Shown here piece by piece: positions 3,209 through 43,781 of a stretch of DNA of 64,000 nt. Origin of the DNA: Psychroflexus salarius (lineage in GTDB: Bacteria; Bacteroidota; Bacteroidia; Flavobacteriales; Flavobacteriaceae); the NCBI RefSeq assembly GCF_900129035.1, contig NZ_FQTW01000006.1, positions 1-64,000 on the forward strand, written 5' to 3'. The position numbers were made by a program, and so were the translations under genes. How positions within the stretch are numbered: position 1 is the first letter of the stretch; every line of letters starts with the position of its first letter. The notes beneath the pieces are model-generated. The model saw only the letters and a program-made list of their open reading frames with translations. It did no database searches and had not been told where the DNA came from.

Positions 3209-4138
3209 ATGCAATCTTTCACAGTTGACGTCAAACCTACAAATAAACCATCAATTATCAAATTAGAAGTTAACGATTTTTTAACCAAATCGAAAAGTTA
3301 TGAGTTCAATAATATTGAAGATGCTCAAAATTCTCCTTTAGCTTCTAAGCTTTTTCACTTACCTTTTGTCAAAACCGTTTTTATTAGCCAGAATTTTGTG
3401 GCGGTAGAAAAATACAACATTGTAGAATGGAGCGATGTACAAGACGACTTAGCCAAGCAAGTTGAAAACGACTTAAATGAAGGTGTTCAAGTCATTAAAA
3501 AAGAAGCTGAAGATGCTAAGAAAAAGGTTCCTGTAACGGTTTATGCTGAAAGTACACCAAACCCTTCAGTAATGAAGTTTGTTGCCAATAAAAAATTGGT
3601 TTTAGCTGCGGCTGAATTTAAAAGTATTGATGAGACATCTCATGCACCAATGATTGAAAAGTTATTTCATTTTCCATTTGTAAAGGAAGTTTTTATAGAT
3701 GAGAACTATATCTCAATTAATAAATACGATATGGCAGAATGGGATATGATTACCCTTGAACTTCGCGAATTTATTAGAACTTACATTGAAGGTGGTGGTA
3801 CTATTGTTAAAACAGGTAGCGTAAGCAAAGAAGAAAACGCTCAAACTGAGGAGACTTCAAAACAAACCCAAAACGGCGTTAACCGCGAGCAATTAGATGA
3901 TACCTCAAATGAAATTATCAACATCCTAGACGAATACATTAAACCAGCAGTTGCTAGCGATGGCGGTAATATTGCATTTAAATCATACAACCCAGAAAGC
4001 AAACAGGTTGAAGTTATTCTGCAAGGCGCTTGTAGCGGTTGCCCTTCTTCAACAATGACATTAAAAAATGGCATAGAAACGATGCTTAAAGAAATGCTTA
4101 ATAACAAGGTAGAAACTGTCGTAGCATTTAATGGCTAA
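3209..4138 (+). CDS. NifU family Fe-S scaffold protein with two Nfu N-terminal domains
   Basis: A 309-residue protein likely to carry and deliver iron-sulfur clusters in the cytoplasm. Two Nfu N-terminal domains lie in tandem (~1-95 and ~110-205; both contain an NPS/KPS-x-(I/V)-(I/M)-K motif and an FxFVKxVFI segment). A charged linker (~210-230) is followed by a NifU C-terminal domain with the cluster-binding C-S-G-C motif at about residues 275-278. This triple layout is usual in Bacteroidota. The ATG at 3209 is preferred because the upstream TTG lies in the promoter. The gene converges on the phosphate transporter, overlapping it by 4 bp. A shorter NifU-C protein is encoded at 32340-32582. 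Confidence 0.92.
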   Translation: MQSFTVDVKPTNKPSIIKLEVNDFLTKSKSYEFNNIEDAQNSPLASKLFHLPFVKTVFISQNFVAVEKYNIVEWSDVQDDLAKQVENDLNEGVQVIKKEAEDAKKKVPVTVYAESTPNPSVMKFVANKKLVLAAAEFKSIDETSHAPMIEKLFHFPFVKEVFIDENYISINKYDMAEWDMITLELREFIRTYIEGGGTIVKTGSVSKEENAQTEETSKQTQNGVNREQLDDTSNEIINILDEYIKPAVASDGGNIAFKSYNPESKQVEVILQGACSGCPSSTMTLKNGIETMLKEMLNNKVETVVAFNG

Positions 4139-6402
4139 AATTCTTTTTTAGCTTCGTTATAGTATTCTTGAAACAGGTGCATCATTTGTAAAGTTGAATT
4201 AACTAAATCTTTTAACTCTAATAATAGTCCGAAATACAATTTAGTATTTTTCGGACTATTATCATCAACTTTTAGACGCTCGATTTGTTTTTGAATTAAA
4301 TCAGATATAAATTGAACTAAAGCTTCATATTTAGCAACTAATAATTTTATTTCTGTAAAGTCTTGATTTTCAAATACAAAAATCATTTTTTCATTAACTT
4401 CATTCAATTCTGCATCGATACGTTTTAAATCACGGATTTGATTGAATTTTAAATTCTTGTGGTTGTTATTAACATGCTTATGACTACTTCTTGTGATATA
4501 AGCCATTGATTGAACAATTTCTTGCAAATAATCTAAGGTCAAAATGTAAAACTTACTCGCTTCAACCGTGTTTTCTTCGAGTGATTTAATGTAGTAAAAC
4601 ACGTTATCTTTAAGTTCATCTATTTCATTTTCTTGTTGCTCAAGCTGGGACAAACTCTTCTTAAATCTACTTGAATCATGATAACCTAAATTGTTTATTA
4701 CATCACGAAGCAATCTATTATTTCCTTTAATAACACTGGTCATATTTTTAGATGACTCAATGGTAATTTCATTAATTGTAATAATATCAGTTCTGTTAAA
4801 CCGCTTTTGTTGCTGTTCTATTTTTGTTTTTTTGGAGTGTTTAACAGCATTACGAACAACCGACAAGCCTGCTAAAATCACTAAAACTATAATAGCATAA
4901 TTACCGCCATACCAAATCACCAAAGCAACAATAGCCGAAGCTGAAAAAGCTAACAAGGCAGTACCAAACCAACTTGCTATAACATTAAAAACACCTGCGA
5001 CACGATAGACTGCCGAGTCGCGATCCCATGCACGATCACCAAATGAAGTTCCCATAGCTACCATAAACGTAACATAGGTGGTTGATAATGGCAATGTGAA
5101 ATTTGTACCTATCGAAATTAAAACACTAGCTAAAACCAAGTTTATTGAAGCACGAAGCAAATCAAATGCCGGTTTAGTTGGTGAAGATGTATAATTTAAA
5201 GCTTGCTCTGGTTTATTAAATCGATTGCTTATTTTAATTTGAAGTTTTTCATCGAGTAATTGCGAAAATGTTTGACCAGTAAACATGGCATAACGTACAA
5301 TTGTTCTAGATAAGTTATTAGCTTTAAAGCGTTCATCGCCTTCGCCTTGACGACCTAAGTTTACGCCCGTTTGAACCACATATTGTGCTTTGCTAGAAAA
5401 CCATAAAGTTAAAACCATCACAAACCCAGCTATCACTAAAATATATTCTGGTGTTTGTACTTCGCCATCTAAACCACTCATTAAAAATTCTGACGGCAAA
5501 ACACCATTTGCTAAAAAAGCATCTTGCCATAGCATAAAAGACTGATAAGAAGCAATACTTACCCCAATGAAGTTAACTAAATCATTCCCTGCAAAAGCTA
5601 ATGCTAAGGCAAATGTTCCTACTATAACAATTAGTTTTAAAATATTTATTTTAAAAACAGACATTAATAATTGTGCTAAAACTATCCAAATCACAAGACT
5701 AATCCCAACGACAAACAATCTGTTATTTTGGACTAATACAGCAAAATCAGGATCAATAAAATCTATTGTGTTGACGCCTTTGATTAAAATAAAATAGGTA
5801 ATAGCCGAAAGCGAAATACCACCAAATAATGCACCAATATATTTTAACTTTTTTTGATAGTTGAATGAAAAAATTAAACGAGATATAAACTGAACAATAG
5901 CACCTACAAAAAAGGCAATAAAAATAGATAAAATAATGCCTAAGCTAATTTCAGTTGCCTTTGTTAAGTTTATAAACTCACCTAAATCTCGGCTTAAATC
6001 TGGATCGTAATACATTTTTAAAAGACTCACACTAACAGCAGCACCAAGCAATTCAAATACAATTGAAACGGTTGTTGACGTAGGAATACCTATGGTATTA
6101 AAGAAGTCTAAAATTAAAATGTCAGTGATTAAAACGGCTAAAAAAATGATGATAATCTCATCAAAATAAAAAACATTGGGATTAAAAATTCCGTTCCTTG
6201 CTACTTCCATTAGTCCGCTAGAAAACACTGCTCCCACAAGTACACCAAGTCCTGCAACTATCAAAATTGTTTTCATAGGAATAGCTTTCGAACCTATAGC
6301 CGAGTTTAAGAAGTTCACCGCATCATTACTCACACCAACAATCAAGTCAGCAACTGCAAGTAAAAACAGTAAAACAACTAATATGATATACAGACTTTCC
6401 AT
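4135..6402 (-). CDS. Inorganic phosphate transporter (PiT family) with C-terminal PhoU-like domain
   Basis: A 755-residue inner-membrane cation-phosphate symporter. Both halves of the PiT signature are visible: SNDAVNF near residue 25 and GNDLVNF near 272. Roughly a dozen hydrophobic segments span residues 1-540. The C-terminal ~200 residues (from about 560) are soluble, helical and charged, and resemble PhoU-like domains, which is common in Bacteroidota PiT proteins. Start chosen at MESLYII (6402); ten upstream codons without transporter character are omitted. A Pho-box-like direct repeat lies 56-73 bp upstream, suggesting phosphate control together with the PhoB-like regulator at 37.6-38.3 kb (inference). 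Confidence 0.93.
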   Translation of the reverse strand: MESLYIILVVLLFLLAVADLIVGVSNDAVNFLNSAIGSKAIPMKTILIVAGLGVLVGAVFSSGLMEVARNGIFNPNVFYFDEIIIIFLAVLITDILILDFFNTIGIPTSTTVSIVFELLGAAVSVSLLKMYYDPDLSRDLGEFINLTKATEISLGIILSIFIAFFVGAIVQFISRLIFSFNYQKKLKYIGALFGGISLSAITYFILIKGVNTIDFIDPDFAVLVQNNRLFVVGISLVIWIVLAQLLMSVFKINILKLIVIVGTFALALAFAGNDLVNFIGVSIASYQSFMLWQDAFLANGVLPSEFLMSGLDGEVQTPEYILVIAGFVMVLTLWFSSKAQYVVQTGVNLGRQGEGDERFKANNLSRTIVRYAMFTGQTFSQLLDEKLQIKISNRFNKPEQALNYTSSPTKPAFDLLRASINLVLASVLISIGTNFTLPLSTTYVTFMVAMGTSFGDRAWDRDSAVYRVAGVFNVIASWFGTALLAFSASAIVALVIWYGGNYAIIVLVILAGLSVVRNAVKHSKKTKIEQQQKRFNRTDIITINEITIESSKNMTSVIKGNNRLLRDVINNLGYHDSSRFKKSLSQLEQQENEIDELKDNVFYYIKSLEENTVEASKFYILTLDYLQEIVQSMAYITRSSHKHVNNNHKNLKFNQIRDLKRIDAELNEVNEKMIFVFENQDFTEIKLLVAKYEALVQFISDLIQKQIERLKVDDNSPKNTKLYFGLLLELKDLVNSTLQMMHLFQEYYNEAKKEF

Positions 6403-6457: not shown

Positions 6458-6475
6458 TGTTACTAAATTATTAAG
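6458..6475 (-). promoter_or_regulatory. Pho-box-like direct repeat upstream of the PiT gene (weak)
   Basis: Two 7-bp half-sites with a 4-bp spacer (plus strand TGTTACT-AAAT-TATTAAG) give the 11-bp period typical of PhoB/PhoP boxes. An imperfect -7 element (CATTTTTG on the minus strand, 6426-6419) lies 31 bp downstream, one helical turn further than at the two better sites in this window. The weakest of the three candidates. Confidence 0.3.
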
Positions 6476-35496: not shown

Positions 35497-36558
35497 ATGG
35501 CAACAAAGCCGCAATTAAGAATATTAGTAGCGCCTTTAAATTGGGGTTTAGGCCATGCTGTGCGTTGCATTCCTATCATAAAACACCTCTTAGCCCAAGG
35601 ACATCATGTCTGCATAGCAAGTGATGGTGCAGCCTTTAATTTGTTACAACAAGAATTTCCAAAACTAAAATCTTACTTGTTAACTTGTTCTAAAGCCACT
35701 TACGCCCGTTCTAAATTTAGCATGAAATACAAATTGGGTTTACAGGCTTTTAAGCTTATAAAAAAAATCAAAAAAGAGCAGAGACTCTTAGCTGAAATCA
35801 GACAAAAAGAAGGCTTAGATCTCATCATTTCTGATAATCGCATAGGCTTAAGGTTAGCTGATACACCTTCAGTAATAATTACACATCAGCTCACAGTTTT
35901 ATCAGGAAAAAGTTCTTGGCTAACAACAGCTATTCATGCTTATTATTTAAAAAAATTCGATTCTATTTGGATTCCAGACCGAAGCGATTCACCACAATTA
36001 AGCGGTATATTGAGCAAAAACAAGCACTTAGACGCAAAGGCGAAATATATTGGAATTCCTTCTCGAATGACATCCATTCATACAGAAAAAATTTATAAAT
36101 ATGCCATGATTCTTTCTGGGCCTGAACCCTTGCGAACTGAGTTTGAACAACGATTAATTGCTATGTTTAAAACTGAAGATTACCCGACAATTCTAATTCA
36201 AGGAAAGGTTGAAGCCAACAAAACAAAACATTACATTGGTAGTATTGAAGTCTATAATTACCTAACTTCAAACGAATTAAATCTAATCATCAATCAAGCA
36301 GAATGTATCATTTGCCGTTCAGGATATACCTCAGTTTTAGATTTAGCAAAACTAGGTGCTAAAGGATTTTTAGTGCCAACGCCTGGACAATATGAGCAAG
36401 AATATTTAGCCCAACACTTGAAGCAAAACGGTTTAGCTGATTTCTGCTTACAAAATAACTTAAGTTTAAAACGTATTAAAAATGCACAATCAATCGGGTT
36501 CAGTGACTACAAAGTTAGTCCACTTCAGATTGATCTAGATTTGAAAGTGGAAGCGTGA
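35497..36558 (+). CDS. Glycosyltransferase-like protein (GT-B, MurG-like C-terminus)
   Basis: 353 residues. The N-terminus APLNWGLGHAVRCIPIIKHL (12-31) matches the Rossmann-like, GH-containing opening of GT-B glycosyltransferases. The C-terminal half has the IICRSGYTSVLDLAKLG motif (~268-284) and a VPTPGQYEQEYLA donor-binding segment, as in GT28/MurG-like proteins. Acceptor and donor unknown. Its last 44 bp overlap the convergent histidine kinase gene, an unusually long 3' overlap. Confidence 0.88.
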   Translation: MATKPQLRILVAPLNWGLGHAVRCIPIIKHLLAQGHHVCIASDGAAFNLLQQEFPKLKSYLLTCSKATYARSKFSMKYKLGLQAFKLIKKIKKEQRLLAEIRQKEGLDLIISDNRIGLRLADTPSVIITHQLTVLSGKSSWLTTAIHAYYLKKFDSIWIPDRSDSPQLSGILSKNKHLDAKAKYIGIPSRMTSIHTEKIYKYAMILSGPEPLRTEFEQRLIAMFKTEDYPTILIQGKVEANKTKHYIGSIEVYNYLTSNELNLIINQAECIICRSGYTSVLDLAKLGAKGFLVPTPGQYEQEYLAQHLKQNGLADFCLQNNLSLKRIKNAQSIGFSDYKVSPLQIDLDLKVEA

Positions 36559-37576
36559 ATGAAAATTCGCTACCAATCCCGTATTCAGAATCAACAAAAA
36601 CCTGCTCTTGATGTGCTTCGATAATATGTTTTACTATCGACAAGCCCAACCCTGAGCCACCTTCTTTACGGGAGCCACTTTTATCTACTCTAAAAAAACG
36701 TTCAAATAATCTAGAAATATGTTGCTTTTCAATGCCTTCACCATTATCAGTAATGCGAATAAGAAGTTTATTGCTTTTTAAGAATTCGAGGCTAATTTCA
36801 GTTGTACCGTCTTTTTTACCATACTTAATTGAATTAACAATTAAGTTTGTTAAAACTTGTTGAATACGCTCCATATCTGCATTAACATGAATAGGTTCGT
36901 ACTCAGCATCAAAAGTTAATGAAATATCTTTTTTAGCAGCCTTCATTTCAAGTAGCTCAAAAACACTTTGAATCAGTTCTACGACATCAAAGTCTTCTTT
37001 AAACAAGTGTAGGTCTCCTGTTTCAAGCTTTGTAATCATGTCTAAATCTTTAACGATATAAATGAGCCGATCAACACCTTTACTAGCGCGAGCAAGGTAT
37101 TTTTTTCTTACTTTTTTATCTTTGATTGCGCCATCTAACAAAGTAAGTATATAACCTTGTACTGTAAATAATGGCGTTTTAAGTTCATGTGAAATGTTAC
37201 CTATAAATTCTTTACGGTAGTTTTCTCTAACTTTAAGCGTTTCGATTTCAAGTTTTTTGTCTCTTGCAAATTTTTCGACTTCAGCAGTTAAGGTTTTCAT
37301 GTCTGAAGTGACCCGTTTTGTACCAATAGTTTCGGCATCTAAAAGTGATACACTATCATAGACTGCTTTTACACGCTTGTAGATAAAGTATTCAATACGT
37401 AATTGAATTATAAAAAATGAAAACACAAATGAAGATAAAGCAAAGACACCTATTGAACCCCAATTAATGCTTAAAACAGTATATTCATAAATAAGTATAA
37501 GCAGGCTTAAAAATAGCGTGATGTAGGTTGAAGTATAAAATGCAAACCGATATGAGCGTTTAAACTTTTGCGCCAT
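36515..37576 (-). CDS. PhoR-like sensor histidine kinase
   Basis: 353 residues. Two N-terminal transmembrane helices (~10-33 and ~38-60) with almost no periplasmic loop, a short linker (no PAS domain is evident), the HisKA domain with H130 in GNISHELKTPLFTVQG, and HATPase_c with N box NLIVNSIKYG, DNGEGI and GSGLGLSIV. The lack of a periplasmic sensor loop fits PhoR proteins, which sense via the PiT/Pst-PhoU system. It overlaps the response regulator gene by 1 bp (TAATG). PhoR identity is inferred from architecture and neighbours, not proven. Confidence 0.9.
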   Translation of the reverse strand: MAQKFKRSYRFAFYTSTYITLFLSLLILIYEYTVLSINWGSIGVFALSSFVFSFFIIQLRIEYFIYKRVKAVYDSVSLLDAETIGTKRVTSDMKTLTAEVEKFARDKKLEIETLKVRENYRKEFIGNISHELKTPLFTVQGYILTLLDGAIKDKKVRKKYLARASKGVDRLIYIVKDLDMITKLETGDLHLFKEDFDVVELIQSVFELLEMKAAKKDISLTFDAEYEPIHVNADMERIQQVLTNLIVNSIKYGKKDGTTEISLEFLKSNKLLIRITDNGEGIEKQHISRLFERFFRVDKSGSRKEGGSGLGLSIVKHIIEAHQEQVFVDSEYGIGSEFSFTLPLSNLDQSEVD

Positions 37577-38259
37577 TAAATTACGAACTTATAGCCAACG
37601 CCTTTTACGGTTTTAAAGCGATTATCCCCAATTTTTTCACGCAATTTTCTGATATGAACGTCTATTGTTCTACCACCAACAACAACTTCATTACCCCAAA
37701 CAGTATTTAAAATATCTTCTCGTTTAAACACTTTTCCAGGCTCTGAAGTCAACAGTGATAAAAGTTCAAATTCTTTTCTTGGTAAAGATAATTCAGCACC
37801 GTTATTTATAACTTTATATTCATCTTTATTGATGGTGATATCGCCAACTTTGTAGATGTTTTTTTCTTTTTTATCAGACTTGAATCGTCTTAACAAAGCA
37901 CCAACTTTACTGATTAAGACTTTAGGTTTAACAGGTTTAGTGATATAATCATCAGCACCGGCATCAAAACCAGCCACTTGTGAATAATCTTCTCCTCTAG
38001 CAGTTAAAAAGGTAATAACAGTATCTTCTAAACCTTTCATTTTTCGAATTTGCTCACAGGCTTCAATACCATCCATTTCTGGCATCATGACATCTAAAAT
38101 GATTAAATGAGGCCGTTTTTTCTTTGCCTTTTTAACAGCTTCTAAACCATTTTCAGCCGTATATACTTTATATTTTTCTTGCGATAAGTTGTAGCTTAAA
38201 ATCTCGAGGATATCTGGGTCGTCGTCTACAATTAAAATACTAATGTCTGATTTTTTCAT
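37576..38259 (-). CDS. PhoB-like OmpR-family response regulator
   Basis: 227 residues. A receiver domain with acidic pocket D12/D13, phospho-acceptor D56 (IILDVMMPEMDG) and K108, then an OmpR/PhoB winged-helix DNA-binding domain (~130-227; LPRKEFELL and RTIDVHIRKLREKIG). The gene's own promoter carries a Pho-box-like direct repeat 21 bp upstream of a perfect -7 element, consistent with autoregulation. Next genes upstream are a TonB-dependent receptor and lipoprotein with a matching site. Alternative: an unrelated OmpR-family regulator. Confidence 0.93.
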   Translation of the reverse strand: MKKSDISILIVDDDPDILEILSYNLSQEKYKVYTAENGLEAVKKAKKKRPHLIILDVMMPEMDGIEACEQIRKMKGLEDTVITFLTARGEDYSQVAGFDAGADDYITKPVKPKVLISKVGALLRRFKSDKKEKNIYKVGDITINKDEYKVINNGAELSLPRKEFELLSLLTSEPGKVFKREDILNTVWGNEVVVGGRTIDVHIRKLREKIGDNRFKTVKGVGYKFVI

Positions 38260-38281: not shown

Positions 38282-38289
38282 CAAATTTA
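38282..38289 (-). promoter_or_regulatory. -7 promoter element of the PhoB/PhoR-like pair
   Basis: TAAATTTG on the minus strand fits TAnnTTTG exactly, 22 bp before the response-regulator ATG. No -33 TTTG lies at the normal spacing; the direct repeat at 38311-38328 occupies that place. Confidence 0.6.
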
Positions 38290-38310
38290 CTTAAAGAAAT
38301 TGATGTTTAA

Positions 38311-38328
38311 AGTTAACAAATAATTACC
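38311..38328 (-). promoter_or_regulatory. Pho-box-like direct repeat of the PhoB-like gene
   Basis: Plus strand AGTTAAC-AAAT-AATTACC: two 7-bp half-sites 11 bp apart, with the downstream edge 21 bp upstream of the -7 element, where a -33 element is expected. In transcription orientation, GTAATT-N5-TTAACT resembles Bacillus PhoP repeats (TTAACA-like, 11-bp period). Confidence 0.45.
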
Positions 38329-38356
38329 AATTAAACTTAACCTGAATTATAAACGC

Positions 38357-38386
38357 AAAAACCACTCGTAATGGAGTGGTTTTTTG
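38357..38386 (-). terminator. Terminator hairpin after the TonB-dependent receptor gene
   Basis: Stem AAAACCACTC/GAGTGGTTTT with a six-base loop, about 25 bp past the receptor stop. The plus strand also has a T-run after it, so it can act in both directions. Confidence 0.75.
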
Positions 38387-38411
38387 CGCCTTAAATAATT
38401 ATGGTTCTTAT

Positions 38412-41219
38412 TTAAAATTTTAGACTATAGCTTAAAGAGAAATTCATTCCAGGGCTAAATTTGTTGTAAATTCTATCTTCTGCTCCGAATGATTCGTAAA
38501 AACTTTCTCTGTCATCGTTTAACAAATTGCTAGCTCTAAATGTTATGCTCGAGTTGTTATCTTCACCAAACGATTTTGTAAAGTTAAATTTTAAGTTATG
38601 AAATGGCTCTGTGTAAACATCTGGAACTGCTCCAATACCTACAACTTGAAGTGTTTTTCCTTGAACATTGTAATATAAACCAGTTCTGATACCTTTATCA
38701 TCGCTATCATAAGTTAAACCAGTGTTGATTAAAAATGGTGACTGACCTTGAAGTTCTCTTTCGTTATCAATTGATTCGCCATCTCTAGCTGCAGATAATC
38801 TTCCTTGAAATTCTGCTTCGTTCATCGTTTGCTGAGATTCAATAATGGAAACATTAGCATTAATGCTAAGGTCTTTTAAAGACTCCGCTATAAAGCCAAA
38901 ATTCTTTCTCACTTCAAATTCAGCTCCAAATACCTGAGCTTGACCAAGGTTTCTAGGCTGAATATCATTAATCGCTTCAATACCAAATACGGTTAATTCA
39001 ATTGGATCTGTAAAATCTTTATAAAATCCACTAACCGCTATTAATTGAGCATCATCTCCAAAAATTTCGTAGCGAACATCAAGGTTATTCACATAAGTTG
39101 GTCTTAGTTCTAAATTACCGTTGAAGGTTATGTTAGTAATTGGGTCGAATATTTGAGCAACAGAAGCTTCTTTAAACGACGGTCTTGCGGTAGATCTTGA
39201 ATAAGTTAACCGCAAGTTTTGATCATCATTTAGGCTATAGATAAAGTTAGCCGAAGGAAAAAGATCTGCTTCACTAATAATATTTTCGTCGACTAACTCG
39301 ACACTGCCTTGCGTGTCTTGACCTGTGTAATAAATATCGAATTTCTCGAATCTAAGCCCTAAAATAGCTTTCAGTTTATCGGTAACATTAAACTCTTCTG
39401 ACACATAGCCTGCAAAAGTAGTAGAGTAAGAGTCGTAATTGTTAGCAGGCTCAAATTGATTAACAATATAAGAACCTCCTGAATTATTAACTCTCCAAAT
39501 ATTCACATCCTTTAACAACTGATTCGGGTCTCCATTTAAAGGCTCGGCTGGCGCTCCATCAAATCTAATGACGTACTGATTAATGTTAAACTCACGTTGT
39601 TTATAGTCGGTTAGTGCACCAAACTTCAGCTTAGCCTCATTATCAAACAATTGGTGTTTATTTTGTAAGTCAGTTTTAGCTGATAAGTTAATTTCATCTA
39701 GATCTCTCCAGATTCGTCTTGGATCACCTATACTTGGTCTAATAATTAAGCGGTCGTCTTCAAGCTCGAATAAAGTAGAGCGTACATCTTTATCAGCTAC
39801 TACAGCGTAGGCTGCAGATGTGCTCCAGTCAAGGTTCCAGTTTTCGTTAGACTCAAACGCGTGTTCACCAGAAAGCTGAAGGTTTGAGACTGAACGTTGT
39901 GTATATTCTAGGTTATCACTAAAAAATTCAGCTCCATTAGAAATGAATGTTTGCTGAAAAAACTCACCAGTTCTTGCTTCACCACTTTGTAAATGAAGCA
40001 TGTTTAATTTATATTTTGCGTAGTCTCTTTTATAAGTTAGGCCAGCCATAGCACTTACTAAAACACTTTCTTTAGATAAGCGACCTTGCTGCAAGCGGTT
40101 AGGAATCATTTCAAACTCATTGAGTTGTTCTGGCTTTAACAAAAAGTTTTGTGTGTAATCCTCGTAATAGGTTTGTTCCGTTCGGTAAGAAATAGAGCCA
40201 ATGTAACCAAGTCTATCTTCACCAACATCAAATTGATTAGAAGTACTAAACCCAAAATTGTAATTCATATTACTGTTTGAAGTTTTAGCCGCCATTTCAG
40301 GATTAAAAGCCTGTGTAAAGCTTGTTAATTGTGGATCATCATTAAAAGGTAAAGGGATATCAGTTCCAGGCGCAATAGGATCATCTCTAAGACCATCATC
40401 AAAACCTAAAAAATCTGTATTGCTACCCGATTGTGTTAAAAAATCACCATTAAAATGCATATCAGGATTATAACTAAGGCCAACGTTAAAATTGTACTCT
40501 TCTCGTGAAGAAAAATCTTTCGTCACAATATCAACCGCACCACCAGTAAAATCAGCTGGTAAGTCGGCTGTAAGTGTTTTATAAACAATGATATTTTCTA
40601 ATAAATTTGTAGGGAATATATCTAATTGAATTGTGTTACGATCGGGATCTAAACCTGGTAAACTCATCCCGTTTAAAATAGATTTTGTGTAACGATCTCC
40701 AAGACCACGTACGTAAACATACTTACCACCTTCAACAGAAACGCCAGGTATATTTTTAACAGCTGATGCAACGTCGTTTGCGCCTACTTTTTTAACACTT
40801 TCAATCGATAAACCATCAAAAACATTGACTGATTTTTTTTGTAAGTTAAGTACAGAGGCTTCTGTATTTTCTCTAGCAGTAGTTGTGATTATAACTTCAT
40901 CTAAAGAAGCGGCTGAAGCAGCTAACGAAATATTGACAACCACATCTTTACCATCTTCAACAACAACTTCTGTTACTTCTTTTGTTTGATAACCCACAAA
41001 TGAAAAAACAACCGTGTAAGTTCCAGGTTCCACATTAAGCGCATAATTTCCATCAAAATCTGTGGTTGAACCAATCGTTGTTCCTTTTAGAGTAACATTT
41101 GCAAAAGGTAGTACATCATTTACCTCTTCGTCATAAACCTTACCTTTTATTGTTCCTTCTTGAGCATTAGCTAAGACGCCTACAAAAAGGCCTAGTATTA
41201 ATAAAAATCGATTAATCAT
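38412..41219 (-). CDS. TonB-dependent outer-membrane receptor
   Basis: 935 residues. Signal peptide (MINRFLLILGLFVGVLANA), an N-terminal carboxypeptidase-regulatory-like domain (~22-105; GTIKGKVYDEE and FDGNYALNVEPGTYTV), a plug domain (~120-240; VKNIPGVSVEGGKYVYVRG), then a 22-strand-type barrel ending in an aromatic residue (SLSYSLKF). It is not a SusC homologue with a SusD partner; instead it lies next to the duplicated lipoprotein. It imports a substrate with TonB-ExbBD energy; the substrate is unknown, but the PhoB-like context suggests a phosphorus source (inference). Start at MINRF gives a good signal peptide. Confidence 0.95.
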   Translation of the reverse strand: MINRFLLILGLFVGVLANAQEGTIKGKVYDEEVNDVLPFANVTLKGTTIGSTTDFDGNYALNVEPGTYTVVFSFVGYQTKEVTEVVVEDGKDVVVNISLAASAASLDEVIITTTARENTEASVLNLQKKSVNVFDGLSIESVKKVGANDVASAVKNIPGVSVEGGKYVYVRGLGDRYTKSILNGMSLPGLDPDRNTIQLDIFPTNLLENIIVYKTLTADLPADFTGGAVDIVTKDFSSREEYNFNVGLSYNPDMHFNGDFLTQSGSNTDFLGFDDGLRDDPIAPGTDIPLPFNDDPQLTSFTQAFNPEMAAKTSNSNMNYNFGFSTSNQFDVGEDRLGYIGSISYRTEQTYYEDYTQNFLLKPEQLNEFEMIPNRLQQGRLSKESVLVSAMAGLTYKRDYAKYKLNMLHLQSGEARTGEFFQQTFISNGAEFFSDNLEYTQRSVSNLQLSGEHAFESNENWNLDWSTSAAYAVVADKDVRSTLFELEDDRLIIRPSIGDPRRIWRDLDEINLSAKTDLQNKHQLFDNEAKLKFGALTDYKQREFNINQYVIRFDGAPAEPLNGDPNQLLKDVNIWRVNNSGGSYIVNQFEPANNYDSYSTTFAGYVSEEFNVTDKLKAILGLRFEKFDIYYTGQDTQGSVELVDENIISEADLFPSANFIYSLNDDQNLRLTYSRSTARPSFKEASVAQIFDPITNITFNGNLELRPTYVNNLDVRYEIFGDDAQLIAVSGFYKDFTDPIELTVFGIEAINDIQPRNLGQAQVFGAEFEVRKNFGFIAESLKDLSINANVSIIESQQTMNEAEFQGRLSAARDGESIDNERELQGQSPFLINTGLTYDSDDKGIRTGLYYNVQGKTLQVVGIGAVPDVYTEPFHNLKFNFTKSFGEDNNSSITFRASNLLNDDRESFYESFGAEDRIYNKFSPGMNFSLSYSLKF

Positions 41220-41242
41220 ATCAATGTATTTATAAAATGTAT

Positions 41243-41273
41243 AAAAACTCACCCCTTAAAAAGGAGTGAGTTT
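41243..41273 (-). terminator. Hairpin between lipoprotein and receptor genes
   Basis: Stem AAACTCACCCCTT/AAGGAGTGAGTTT with one mismatch, followed on the minus strand by a T-run. It lies 23 bp past the lipoprotein stop and 24 bp before the receptor ATG, so it probably gives more lipoprotein mRNA than receptor mRNA. Confidence 0.7.
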
Positions 41274-41295
41274 GAGTAATTTAATGTTATGCTAA

Positions 41296-43599
41296 TTAAA
41301 ATGCAGATTGTAAAGATGACATTGTCCAAGTAAATACAGAAGCATCAGCACCAGTAGTTTGGTTGCCTTCAGTTACACTTGAAGCCCAGTCTGAAGCATC
41401 AGTCGTAAATGATGATGGCATACCAGCTGTATCTTTCCAAATTGCCGTTACATCATTTACGCCAGAAGGTAATACCATTTCCCAATTTGTATAACTTAAG
41501 TTACCAGCTACATAATTATCAGAAGTCGCTTGATCATCAAGTTCTAAATCTGCGCCTGATAAAAATCCAACTGTATAAACGTTGTTAACTGAACCTTGTG
41601 CATTATCTCTAAAATCTGCATATTCACGATTACCACTTACACCATCAACAGTGGCTGAATCATCACCATACATTGTTAGATTGTTAATAGTAAACGCAGC
41701 TTCGAATGAACCTTCAGGGCCATCAATTTCTAAACCATGATCTGATACATTTTCTTGAATAGTGATAGCGTTAGTAATAGTTCCTGAGTAAGCTTGATCA
41801 ATATCAATTGCATCATCACCAACACCCCAAACAATTAAGTTAGATGCATCGACAGATCCACCAAAAAATTCGATGCCGTCATCAACGTTAGCAACAACTT
41901 CGATGTGGTCTATAGTGGTTCCATTACCAACACCACCAAGTGTTAAACCGTTAATTTCATTATCAGAACCAATTACAGCTCCACCATGTCTTATTGAGAT
42001 ATAACGTAACACGCCTGAACTATCACCATCATCATTACCACCGTAAGTTCCTGGTTCAGTTGCAGGTAAACCTTCAATTTGAACAGAAGTTGCATCTCCA
42101 GAGAATGAGCCTTTAGCTTTACCTAAAACTAAAACACCACCCCAAAGGCCACGGTCACCAACATCTAAGTTAGTCCCAGCTGTTTCACCCAAAGCAATAT
42201 TATCAGCCTCAGATGTAAATATGATTGGCGTTGATGGATCTTGACCATCAGCAATTAAAGTACCACCTTGCGCTACGATTAAAGCAGAGGCATTAGAACC
42301 TGTAGACTGAGCACCTTTAACGATTGTACCAGGCTCGATAGTAAGAGTAACACCATCTTCAACATAAACCTTACCTTCCATTAACCAGAAACGGTCGTTA
42401 GTCCATGTAGTATCTTCAGTAATGTTACCAGAAACGGTTTGTGTTCCAGCTTCAACTTCACCTGCATCAATTGCACCTTCAGAGTTTGCCATTGTCCAAG
42501 CAAACACATCTAAGTTAGCACCTGTTGTTTCTTCACCAGCTACAATACCATCAGTCCAATCTGAAGAATCATCTGCAAAAGTCGATTCTGAATCTGCTGT
42601 ATCTTTAAAGGTTGTAAAGAAACCTGCACCTTGAGGAAATACAATTTCCCAATTTGTAAAACTTAAGTTACCAGCTGCATAGTTATCTGAAGTTGCTTGA
42701 TCGTCTAATTCTACGTCAGCACCAGAAGCAAAACCAACAGCATATACATTGTTAACTGAACCTTGTGCATTATCTCTAAAATCTGCATATTCTCGGTTAC
42801 CACTAACGCCATCAATTGTTTCAGAGTTGTCACCGAACATGGTTAAGTTATTGATAGTAAATGCATCTTCAAAAGAACCTTCAGGACCATCAATTTCTAG
42901 TGCATGATCTGAAATATTTTCTTGAATCGTTACCACATTAGTGATAGTTCCAGAATACGCCTGATCAATATCAATAGCATCATCACCAACACCCCAAACT
43001 AACAAGTTAGAAGCATCTACAGTACCACCAAAAAACTCGATACCATCATCAACATTAGCAATAACTTCAATATGATCTACGATTGTACCGTTACCAACAC
43101 CACCAAGTGTTAAACCGTTAATTTCGTTATCAGAACCAATAATTGCTCCACCATGTCTTATAGACACGTGTCTTAATATCCCTGAACTATCTGATGGTGT
43201 TGATCCACCATAATCACCTGGCTCAGTTGCTGGAAGACCTTCAATTTGAACAGATTCAGCATCGCCTGAAAATGAGCCTGGCGCATTACCTAAAACTAAA
43301 ACGCCACCCCATAAACCGCGGTCATTAACATCTAAGTTGGTTCCTGAAGTTTGACCAACTTCAATATTGTCAGCTGAAGATGTAAAAATAATCGGCTCAC
43401 TTGGAGAACCATCTGCAATTAATGTTGCGTCTTGCGCTACAATTAAAGCCGAGGCATTAGAACCTGTAGATTGTTGACCTTTAATAATAGTTCCTGGATT
43501 GATTGTTAAGGTTACGCCTTCGGTAACGTAAACTTTACCGTCTAGTTCCCAAATTCTGTCGTTAGTCCAAGTGGTATTTTCTGTAATGTTACCAGAAAC
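41296..43599 (-). repeat. Internal tandem duplication, two ~1.15-kb units
   Basis: Unit 1 occupies 43599-42436 and unit 2 42435-41296. Long near-identical blocks are visible in DNA and protein, for instance the segments encoding VDDGIEFFGG and VWGVGDDAIDIDQAYSGTIT in both copies. Synonymous third-position differences between copies argue that the duplication is not recent. Confidence 0.92.
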
Positions 43600-43707
43600 C
43601 ACTTCGTTGTCTGGTTGTGGATTAGTATTAGTAACCGTATCATCATCACTACAAGAAGCAACCAACAAAACGCTCATCAATACTACCGAGTAAAATAATT
43701 TTTTCAT
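41296..43707 (-). CDS. Surface lipoprotein made of two tandem ~380-residue beta-helix-like units
   Basis: 803 residues. Lipoprotein signal (SVVLMSVLLVASC, Cys19) followed by an acidic linker. Unit 1 covers ~37-424 and unit 2 ~425-803. Each begins VSGNITE-x-TTWTNDR, contains GVTLTI-x-PGTI and GSNASALIVAQ, then GGV-x-VLG, and ends with SDW and TGA. Repeating short strands suggest a right-handed parallel beta-helix. Such proteins occur next to TonB-dependent receptors; some databases misname them as transporters. Likely an outer-membrane partner that captures the receptor's substrate. Upstream lies a -7 element with a Pho-box-like repeat. Confidence 0.9.
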   Translation of the reverse strand: MKKLFYSVVLMSVLLVASCSDDDTVTNTNPQPDNEVVSGNITENTTWTNDRIWELDGKVYVTEGVTLTINPGTIIKGQQSTGSNASALIVAQDATLIADGSPSEPIIFTSSADNIEVGQTSGTNLDVNDRGLWGGVLVLGNAPGSFSGDAESVQIEGLPATEPGDYGGSTPSDSSGILRHVSIRHGGAIIGSDNEINGLTLGGVGNGTIVDHIEVIANVDDGIEFFGGTVDASNLLVWGVGDDAIDIDQAYSGTITNVVTIQENISDHALEIDGPEGSFEDAFTINNLTMFGDNSETIDGVSGNREYADFRDNAQGSVNNVYAVGFASGADVELDDQATSDNYAAGNLSFTNWEIVFPQGAGFFTTFKDTADSESTFADDSSDWTDGIVAGEETTGANLDVFAWTMANSEGAIDAGEVEAGTQTVSGNITEDTTWTNDRFWLMEGKVYVEDGVTLTIEPGTIVKGAQSTGSNASALIVAQGGTLIADGQDPSTPIIFTSEADNIALGETAGTNLDVGDRGLWGGVLVLGKAKGSFSGDATSVQIEGLPATEPGTYGGNDDGDSSGVLRYISIRHGGAVIGSDNEINGLTLGGVGNGTTIDHIEVVANVDDGIEFFGGSVDASNLIVWGVGDDAIDIDQAYSGTITNAITIQENVSDHGLEIDGPEGSFEAAFTINNLTMYGDDSATVDGVSGNREYADFRDNAQGSVNNVYTVGFLSGADLELDDQATSDNYVAGNLSYTNWEMVLPSGVNDVTAIWKDTAGMPSSFTTDASDWASSVTEGNQTTGADASVFTWTMSSLQSAF

Positions 43708-43735
43708 TGTGTTATGTTTATTAATATTTTGATGG

Positions 43736-43743
43736 CAAAACTA
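43736..43743 (-). promoter_or_regulatory. -7 promoter element of the lipoprotein/receptor pair
   Basis: TAGTTTTG on the minus strand fits TAnnTTTG, 28 bp before the lipoprotein ATG. No -33 TTTG lies at the proper distance; the Pho-box-like repeat begins 20 bp further upstream. Confidence 0.55.
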
Positions 43744-43763
43744 CCCGAGAAGTCTTTTACCCT

Positions 43764-43781
43764 TGTTAATCTAATGTTACC
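43764..43781 (-). promoter_or_regulatory. Pho-box-like direct repeat of the lipoprotein/receptor promoter
   Basis: Plus strand TGTTAAT-CTAA-TGTTACC: two 7-bp half-sites 11 bp apart. On the minus (transcribed) strand this reads GTAACA-N5-TTAACA, close to Bacillus PhoP direct repeats and with the same geometry as the E. coli Pho box. It sits 20 bp upstream of the -7 element. Best of the three candidates in the window. Confidence 0.5.

Follow-up and report, generated by a model that had tools for sequence, protein, structure and literature searches.

Candidate Pho-box-type repeats at a phoB-like gene and a lipoprotein/TonB receptor operon in Psychroflexus salarius

The phoB locus and its two direct repeats

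We have analyzed 64,000 nucleotides of Psychroflexus salarius (positions 1 to 64,000 of contig NZ_FQTW01000006.1, called the window below), part of a genome of 2.53 Mb. The subject is a pair of direct repeats found at the promoters of a phoB-like gene and of a lipoprotein/receptor operon. The locus contains a PhoB-like response regulator, the putative binder of the repeats (37576-38259, minus strand), whose receiver and Trans_reg_C domains (PF00072 and PF00486) place it in the OmpR/PhoB family. Next to it are a PhoR-like histidine kinase (36515-37576, minus strand, PF00512 and PF02518), a TonB-dependent receptor of 935 amino acids (38412-41219, minus strand, PF00593, PF07715 and PF13715), an FII-type lipoprotein of 803 amino acids (open reading frame 41296-43707, minus strand, no Pfam match) and a glycosyltransferase (35497-36558, plus strand, PF04101). 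In Flavobacterium johnsoniae, genes of the same five kinds lie together in the phoBR cluster (Fjoh_0541-0546, PMC8115612): The glycosyltransferase corresponds to Fjoh_0541 and the lipoprotein, by position, to Fjoh_0546. No OprP gene is present between the PhoR and glycosyltransferase genes of the window.

The repeats were described in an earlier note on this DNA. Re-reading confirms the sequences and positions which it gave for them and for the -7 elements, as well as the distances between them. On the forward strand, the repeat at the phoB promoter is AGTTAAC-AAAT-AATTACC (38311-38328), the one at the promoter of the lipoprotein operon is TGTTAAT-CTAA-TGTTACC (43764-43781). Transcription runs along the minus strand here, so that in its sense they read GGTAATT-ATTT-GTTAACT and GGTAACA-TTAG-ATTAACA, respectively. 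Both then have the form TAAY-N7-TAAC: a direct repeat of half-sites at a period of 11 bp, separated by a 4-bp spacer, as in Pho-box-type sites of the OmpR/PhoB family. The -7 elements are TAAATTTG for phoB (38289-38282, minus strand), with similar elements in congeners, and TAGTTTTG for the lipoprotein operon (43743-43736, minus strand). Both are perfect copies of TAnnTTTG, the -7 box of flavobacterial sigma-A promoters, which lies at -12 to -5 (PMC9723704). The gaps between repeat and -7 element are 21 bp for phoB and 20 bp for the operon. Taking the first base of each -7 element as reference, the half-sites of the operon start 36 and 25 bp upstream (TAAC at -36 and -25), those of phoB 37 and 26 bp upstream (TAAT at -37, TAAC at -26).

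This arrangement is rare by chance. The pattern TAAY-N7-TAAY-N21-TNNNTTTG has two matches in the window, at the lipoprotein promoter and upstream of a gene for a PiT phosphate transporter, while 0.14 are expected in shuffled sequences. The same pattern with N22 matches once, at the phoB promoter, with 0.09 expected. Taken together there are three sites against 0.23, and each of them precedes a phosphate-linked gene. The PiT gene (open reading frame 4135-6402, minus strand, PF01384) has its box, TAATAATTTAGTAAC, at 6459-6473 on the minus strand, with counterparts at congener loci.

Conservation of the repeats in Flavobacteriaceae

A search for the lipoprotein in 199 genomes of the family gave matches in 181, including the source genome. 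We have examined one promoter each from 49 of the other 180 matching genomes (mostly the best-scoring ones, so that weak homologues are unrepresented), those of six named loci and that of the window. Two of these 56 promoters, one with its upstream region cut off (L045) and one with a misplaced start (L048), were dropped from the distance and alignment counts. Nearly all of the remaining 54 come from different genera. When distances from TAAC to TAAC are counted in them, 11 bp is the strongest peak, with 53 pairs (0.8 in shuffled sequences, 4 at the most), along with the sums 33 bp (39 pairs) and 44 bp (35 pairs). The reverse strand has two pairs at 11 bp.

A -7 element is found in 47 of the 54 promoters with the pattern used. 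When these are aligned by that element only, TAAY is found at -36 in 34 of them, at -25 in 37, at -69 in 30 and at -58 in 31. The common lipoprotein promoter has thus two boxes 33 bp apart, of which that of the window retains the near one. In many genera, but not in the window, a stretch similar to CTTTACA is seen at -16 to -10, between box and -7 element. Such a stretch could act as a third, weak half-site one 11-bp period further along, or as an element of the core promoter.

A receptor and a lipoprotein of another type, divergent from phoB, are found beside this gene in Maribacter, Mesonia, Kordia, Flavobacterium and others. We call this arrangement type 2, and that of the window type 1. 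In the matched N-terminal stretches, type 2 receptors are 24-56% identical to the receptor of the window, mostly near 28%. We have studied 27 type 2 loci, in a few of which the receptor lies some kilobases away from phoB. In their receptor promoters, TAAC pairs number 29 at a distance of 11 bp, 25 at 33 bp and 23 at 44 bp. For example, the order in F. panici (L095) is lipoprotein, receptor, PhoB, PhoR, OprP and glycosyltransferase: The receptor operon of this F. johnsoniae-type cluster is divergent from phoB, unlike that of the window, and the receptor is of the other type (27% identity), with all four half-sites in its promoter.

The two types also occur within the genus of P. salarius. In two congener loci (L168 and L169) a type 2 operon replaces type 1, with TAAC-N7-TAAC at -36/-25. 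Type 2 is found in L168, L169, L175, L177, L178, L180 and L182, type 1 in L046, L165-L167, L170-L174, L176, L179, L183 and L184. Two distantly related receptor-lipoprotein pairs alternate near phoBR inside one genus. The exact form of the box is found in 10 of the 19 readable congener operons, the window not counted (8 of 12 in type 1, 2 of 7 in type 2), two of the 21 loci being unreadable (L166 and L181). Sequences from a single genus are not independent counts.

The spacing is specific. With N20, N21 or N22 before the -7 element, the pattern is present in 32 of 54 lipoprotein promoters (here without the window and L045, but with L048), in 17 of 27 type 2 receptor promoters and in 2 of 415 control promoters, which are other promoters from 80 named related loci. 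If the gap between half-sites is changed from 7 to 5, 6, 8 or 9 bases, any promoter set gives at most one match. The note had held that AT-richness alone hardly explains the geometry, and had proposed to look at orthologous promoters and shuffled DNA. In both respects its view stands: The repeats are far more frequent than in shuffled sequences and control promoters, and their conservation is strong across genera for the receptor and lipoprotein genes, within the genus exact in about half of the operons.

In the control promoters themselves, TAAC-N7-TAAC occurs in 12 of 415 cases and each neighbouring spacing in 3, so that more targets of OmpR-type regulators may be hidden among them. The genome has at least two more full-length OmpR-type regulators, about 35% identical to the PhoB-like one. 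Both observations would agree with the use of these boxes by a different member of the OmpR family with the same type of site. We consider this quite unlikely: The box is present at the operon next to phoB even when that operon is of the other type, and both the motif and the moxR target described below appear to agree with those of the PhoP protein of Riemerella anatipestifer.

The phoB promoter is less uniform. The regulator is found in all 27 genomes of the genus, and that of the window is 84% identical to its counterpart in Psychroflexus longus (L055). A TAAY pair is present in 18 of the 27 phoB promoters. In 7 of them, including the window, the pair starts at -36 or -37. In another 11 the same TAAC has its partner on the other, downstream side, so that the pair starts at -26. 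The remaining nine have no TAAY pair by this pattern. The phoB repeat might then be a chance match in AT-rich DNA, with a true box at the lipoprotein operon only, which would be compatible with our reading of the operon. The small number of genomes with the geometry of the window fits this explanation, and one match to the N22 pattern is expected by chance in about one of eleven windows (0.09 per window). Nevertheless, it appears improbable, since 11 more congeners hold the TAAC half-site with a partner, the form found in the window returns in species with regulators 71-74% identical, and Riemerella PhoP binds its own promoter (PMC9603813). The conservation expected for phoB is therefore partly found, in 7 promoters with the same geometry and 11 with a shifted pair, and partly absent, in nine. 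The phoB box is supported, from comparison of sequences, less firmly than the operon box.

A helix of the regulator, RTIDVHIRKLREK[IL]G, is identical in the 39 relatives displayed, which were selected with an expression of its general form that would miss divergent helices. Such a constant helix fits an unchanging DNA site.

Other candidate targets in the genus

Matches of a loose pattern in the genome, rejected as statistical proof of a regulon, were used only as a source of candidates for tests in congeners. Those lying upstream of genes include PafA (PF01663), PiT (PF01384), MoxR (AAA_3) and two TonB receptors. Among the 27 genomes of the genus, moxR promoters could be read in 26, one being cut off, while 21 pafA and 19 PiT loci passed the E-value limits.

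The most constant boxes are those of moxR. All 26 readable promoters have a TAAY pair exactly at -36/-25 (TAAC-TAAC in 25), always 25 bp from a -7-like TTTGC element. In most congeners the box has the form TTTAAC-N7-TAACA, which we have compared with the Riemerella core as it is printed, TTTAACA. This fixed placement beside the promoter core is the same -36/-25 grid found in the exact congener operons. A TAAY pair precedes PiT in 16 of 19 loci. Its distance from a later TTTGC element is 36 or 37 bp in 15 of them and 52 bp in one, so that the box lies a helical turn farther upstream than expected from the pattern match in the window. In the three other loci the promoter may have been cut short or misread. 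The pafA box is looser than the other two: All 21 congeners have TTTAAC, followed 11 bp on by TAAA (14), TAAT (5) or TTAT (2), which gives a TAA partner in 19 of 21. From these comparisons, the regulon of the genus probably also includes PiT, pafA and moxR.

A few other sites were seen. TAAC-N7-TAAT pairs are present upstream of two neighbouring TonB receptor genes of like orientation (L190 and L191, G000:C4, near 157600 and 160400), in both cases at -36/-25 relative to a TTTG element whose end lies 29-30 bp before the start codon. A TAAC-N7-TAAC pair with TATATTTG is found ahead of a small YtxH-like protein (L263, G000:C33, near 166050). Six of the 14 matches to a pattern of four half-sites in eight genomes are phoB-linked receptor promoters of six different genomes, and one more (L254) precedes what appears by eye to be a SusC-type receptor.

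Two other approaches were abandoned. A profile model built from other genera was rejected as a detector in this genome: Its best match there, at 3240-3286 of the window, is inside an opposite open reading frame, and the two repeats do not appear in its list up to E 10 (150 of 4087 first-look candidates scored). Its scores were 13.3 bits for the pafA site (E 0.37) and 12.4 bits for the L190 site (E 0.76). Promoters of the PhoX family (PF05787) were not used as independent support from a phosphate gene, as their signal is weak. They come from 29 loci, five with the start off the flank. The P. salarius genome has no PF05787 match.

A probable phosphate regulator and its proposed code

The best interpretation, to which we give a probability of about 0.8, is that the repeats are flavobacterial-type Pho boxes, bound by the PhoB-like regulator, which would raise the expression of the operon under phosphate limitation. 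The recurrence of matching sites in relatives makes it very probable that the two repeat sites themselves are real. When phosphate is scarce, the PhoR-like kinase would phosphorylate the regulator, as the families of both suggest. The regulator would then bind as a head-to-tail dimer to two half-sites with a consensus close to KTAAC-N6-KTAAC, both brought onto the same side of the helix by the 11-bp period. Since the -7 element occupies -12 to -5, the half-sites start near -48 and -37 from the transcription start. An activator in the -33 region could contact RNA polymerase there and replace the -33 element. In many relatives, the second pair 33 bp further upstream would permit a tetramer. Binding would increase expression of the lipoprotein/receptor operon and, less certainly, of phoB itself.

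This interpretation, a Pho-box-like control by a PhoB/PhoR-like pair, is the one proposed in the earlier note, and it gains support from conservation, frequency and phosphate data from F. johnsoniae. In phosphate-depleted cells of this species, the log2 fold changes are 9.91 for the lipoprotein, 8.02 for the receptor, 3.06 for PhoB and 5.42 for the glycosyltransferase Fjoh_0541 (PMC8115612). A lack of phosphate response would have counted against the proposal: Most F. johnsoniae genes in the same place are in fact induced. The main text of that paper uses neither "Pho box" nor "promoter".

Several results weigh on the other side. Nine of the 19 congener operons have no exact form of the box, although seven of these nine show a degenerate pair there under a less strict pattern, chosen post hoc, and the same number of phoB promoters (9 of 27) are without a pair. 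In the P. salarius genome the loose pattern gives 37 matches against 25 for a reversed control, which is not significant, and 8 of them (9 with pafA, which the sorting rule wrongly placed within an open reading frame) are upstream of genes, against 0 or 5 for controls depending on direction, without a clear separation (two of the 25 control matches were not found again in this sorting). The four-half-site pattern has 14 matches and its control 11. The profile model listed neither site of the window up to E 10, with 150 of 4087 first-look candidates scored. The 24 PhoX promoters left contain 5 TAAC pairs at 11 bp, in heterogeneous matches. The regulator scores below the cut-offs of the curated NCBIfam equivalogs TIGR02154 and NF053854 (213.7 against 296.2 bits, 209.7 against 270 bits), yet these PhoB models are its two best. 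The kinase is also below cut-off, with PnpS and PhoR models as the best. In F. johnsoniae, PhoR (0.76) and OprP (-1.3) are not induced by phosphate depletion, and PafA, encoded elsewhere in the genome, is described as phosphate-independent (0.26, PMC8115612).

The sites might also be real and bound by this PhoB-like regulator, but in answer to a broad envelope or stress signal, as proposed for Riemerella PhoP, with phosphate genes as only part of its targets. This explanation shares site and protein with the phosphate reading: Such readings overlap, and their odds do not sum to one. In R. anatipestifer, for whose regulator 70% identity with other Flavobacteriaceae is reported (PMC5399024), PhoP has 583 peaks in DNA affinity purification sequencing, with a motif core TTTAACA likened to ArcA. 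It binds its own promoter and that of moxR, moxR/bat genes are among its targets, moxR falls in the mutant (log2 fold change -2.03, PMC9603813), and pstS rises in the phoPR mutant. The constancy of the moxR boxes, found in 26 of 26 promoters, points in the same direction. The site at pafA does so as well, since PafA is called phosphate-insensitive elsewhere: It argues for a change specific to the genus or for a broader signal. On the other hand, PiT and pafA belong by family to the phosphate genes. In F. johnsoniae, phosphate depletion induces the syntenic lipoprotein and receptor, and loci of this kind are reported to be under tight repression when nitrogen and iron are limiting (PMC8115612). 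A broad signal seems to us somewhat unlikely. A likeness to Riemerella PhoP is apparent in the TTTAACA-type core and in the sites at its own promoter and at moxR. The available part of that paper gives no rule of 11-bp pairs and no -36/-25 placement (PMC9603813). A search of the open literature library found no flavobacterial Pho box defined by sequence and position.

We also suggest, only tentatively and at less than even odds, a wider model. One regulator and one strictly spaced code (pairs of KTAAC 11 bp apart, standing at -36/-25 and often doubled 33 bp upstream) would govern phosphate scavenging across Flavobacteriaceae, and this code would stay while the receptor-lipoprotein pair is swapped. 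The genus would add pafA, thought to be phosphate-insensitive, and moxR/bat, which would tie phosphate supply to the control of envelope or oxidative stress. In sea and soil, flavobacteria play an important part in phosphorus recycling. With a fixed grid tied to the -7 element, phosphate regulons could be predicted from sequence, PiT, pafA and moxR being its direct predictions.

Comparison with known systems and minor features

E. coli promoters have a -10 element where flavobacteria have the -7 element TAnnTTTG. Both the half-site sequence and the target genes of Mycobacterium tuberculosis PhoP differ from those described here. The E. coli Pho box is like our repeats in its 7-bp half-sites, 4-bp spacer and direct orientation, but its half-site is CTGTCAT (consensus quoted in PMC4832192) and not KTAAC: The half-sites here are GGTAACA/ATTAACA and GGTAATT/GTTAACT. 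The complex of M. tuberculosis PhoP with DNA offers another parallel, a tandem dimer on 7-bp motifs with a strict 4-bp spacer, and its binding extends to three and four motifs (PMC4832192). In Bacteroides fragilis, also a member of Bacteroidota, PhoB binds the phosphate promoter pstC in electrophoretic mobility shift assays, with no site sequence defined in the available part of the paper (PMC3547664). Pho boxes have been predicted near plcP in marine bacteria, in a set of strains which includes a flavobacterium. The available part of that report gives neither sequence nor position, and does not state whether a flavobacterial box was predicted (PMC4796936).

Two hairpins are found between the genes of the locus, and a simple terminator scan picked up neither of them. 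The one between receptor and phoB genes (38354-38388, strand unassigned, fold -22.1 kcal/mol, z -6.95) is terminator-like. The other, with a run of U, is a possible attenuator between lipoprotein and receptor genes (41244-41273, minus strand, fold -16.9 kcal/mol, z -6.1), and perhaps sets a high ratio of lipoprotein to receptor. Several congeners have a seemingly different hairpin at this junction, as judged by eye. The FII-type lipoprotein is a tandem duplication, with halves 76.6% identical over 381 amino acids, and most of its better-scoring matches in relatives span one half only.

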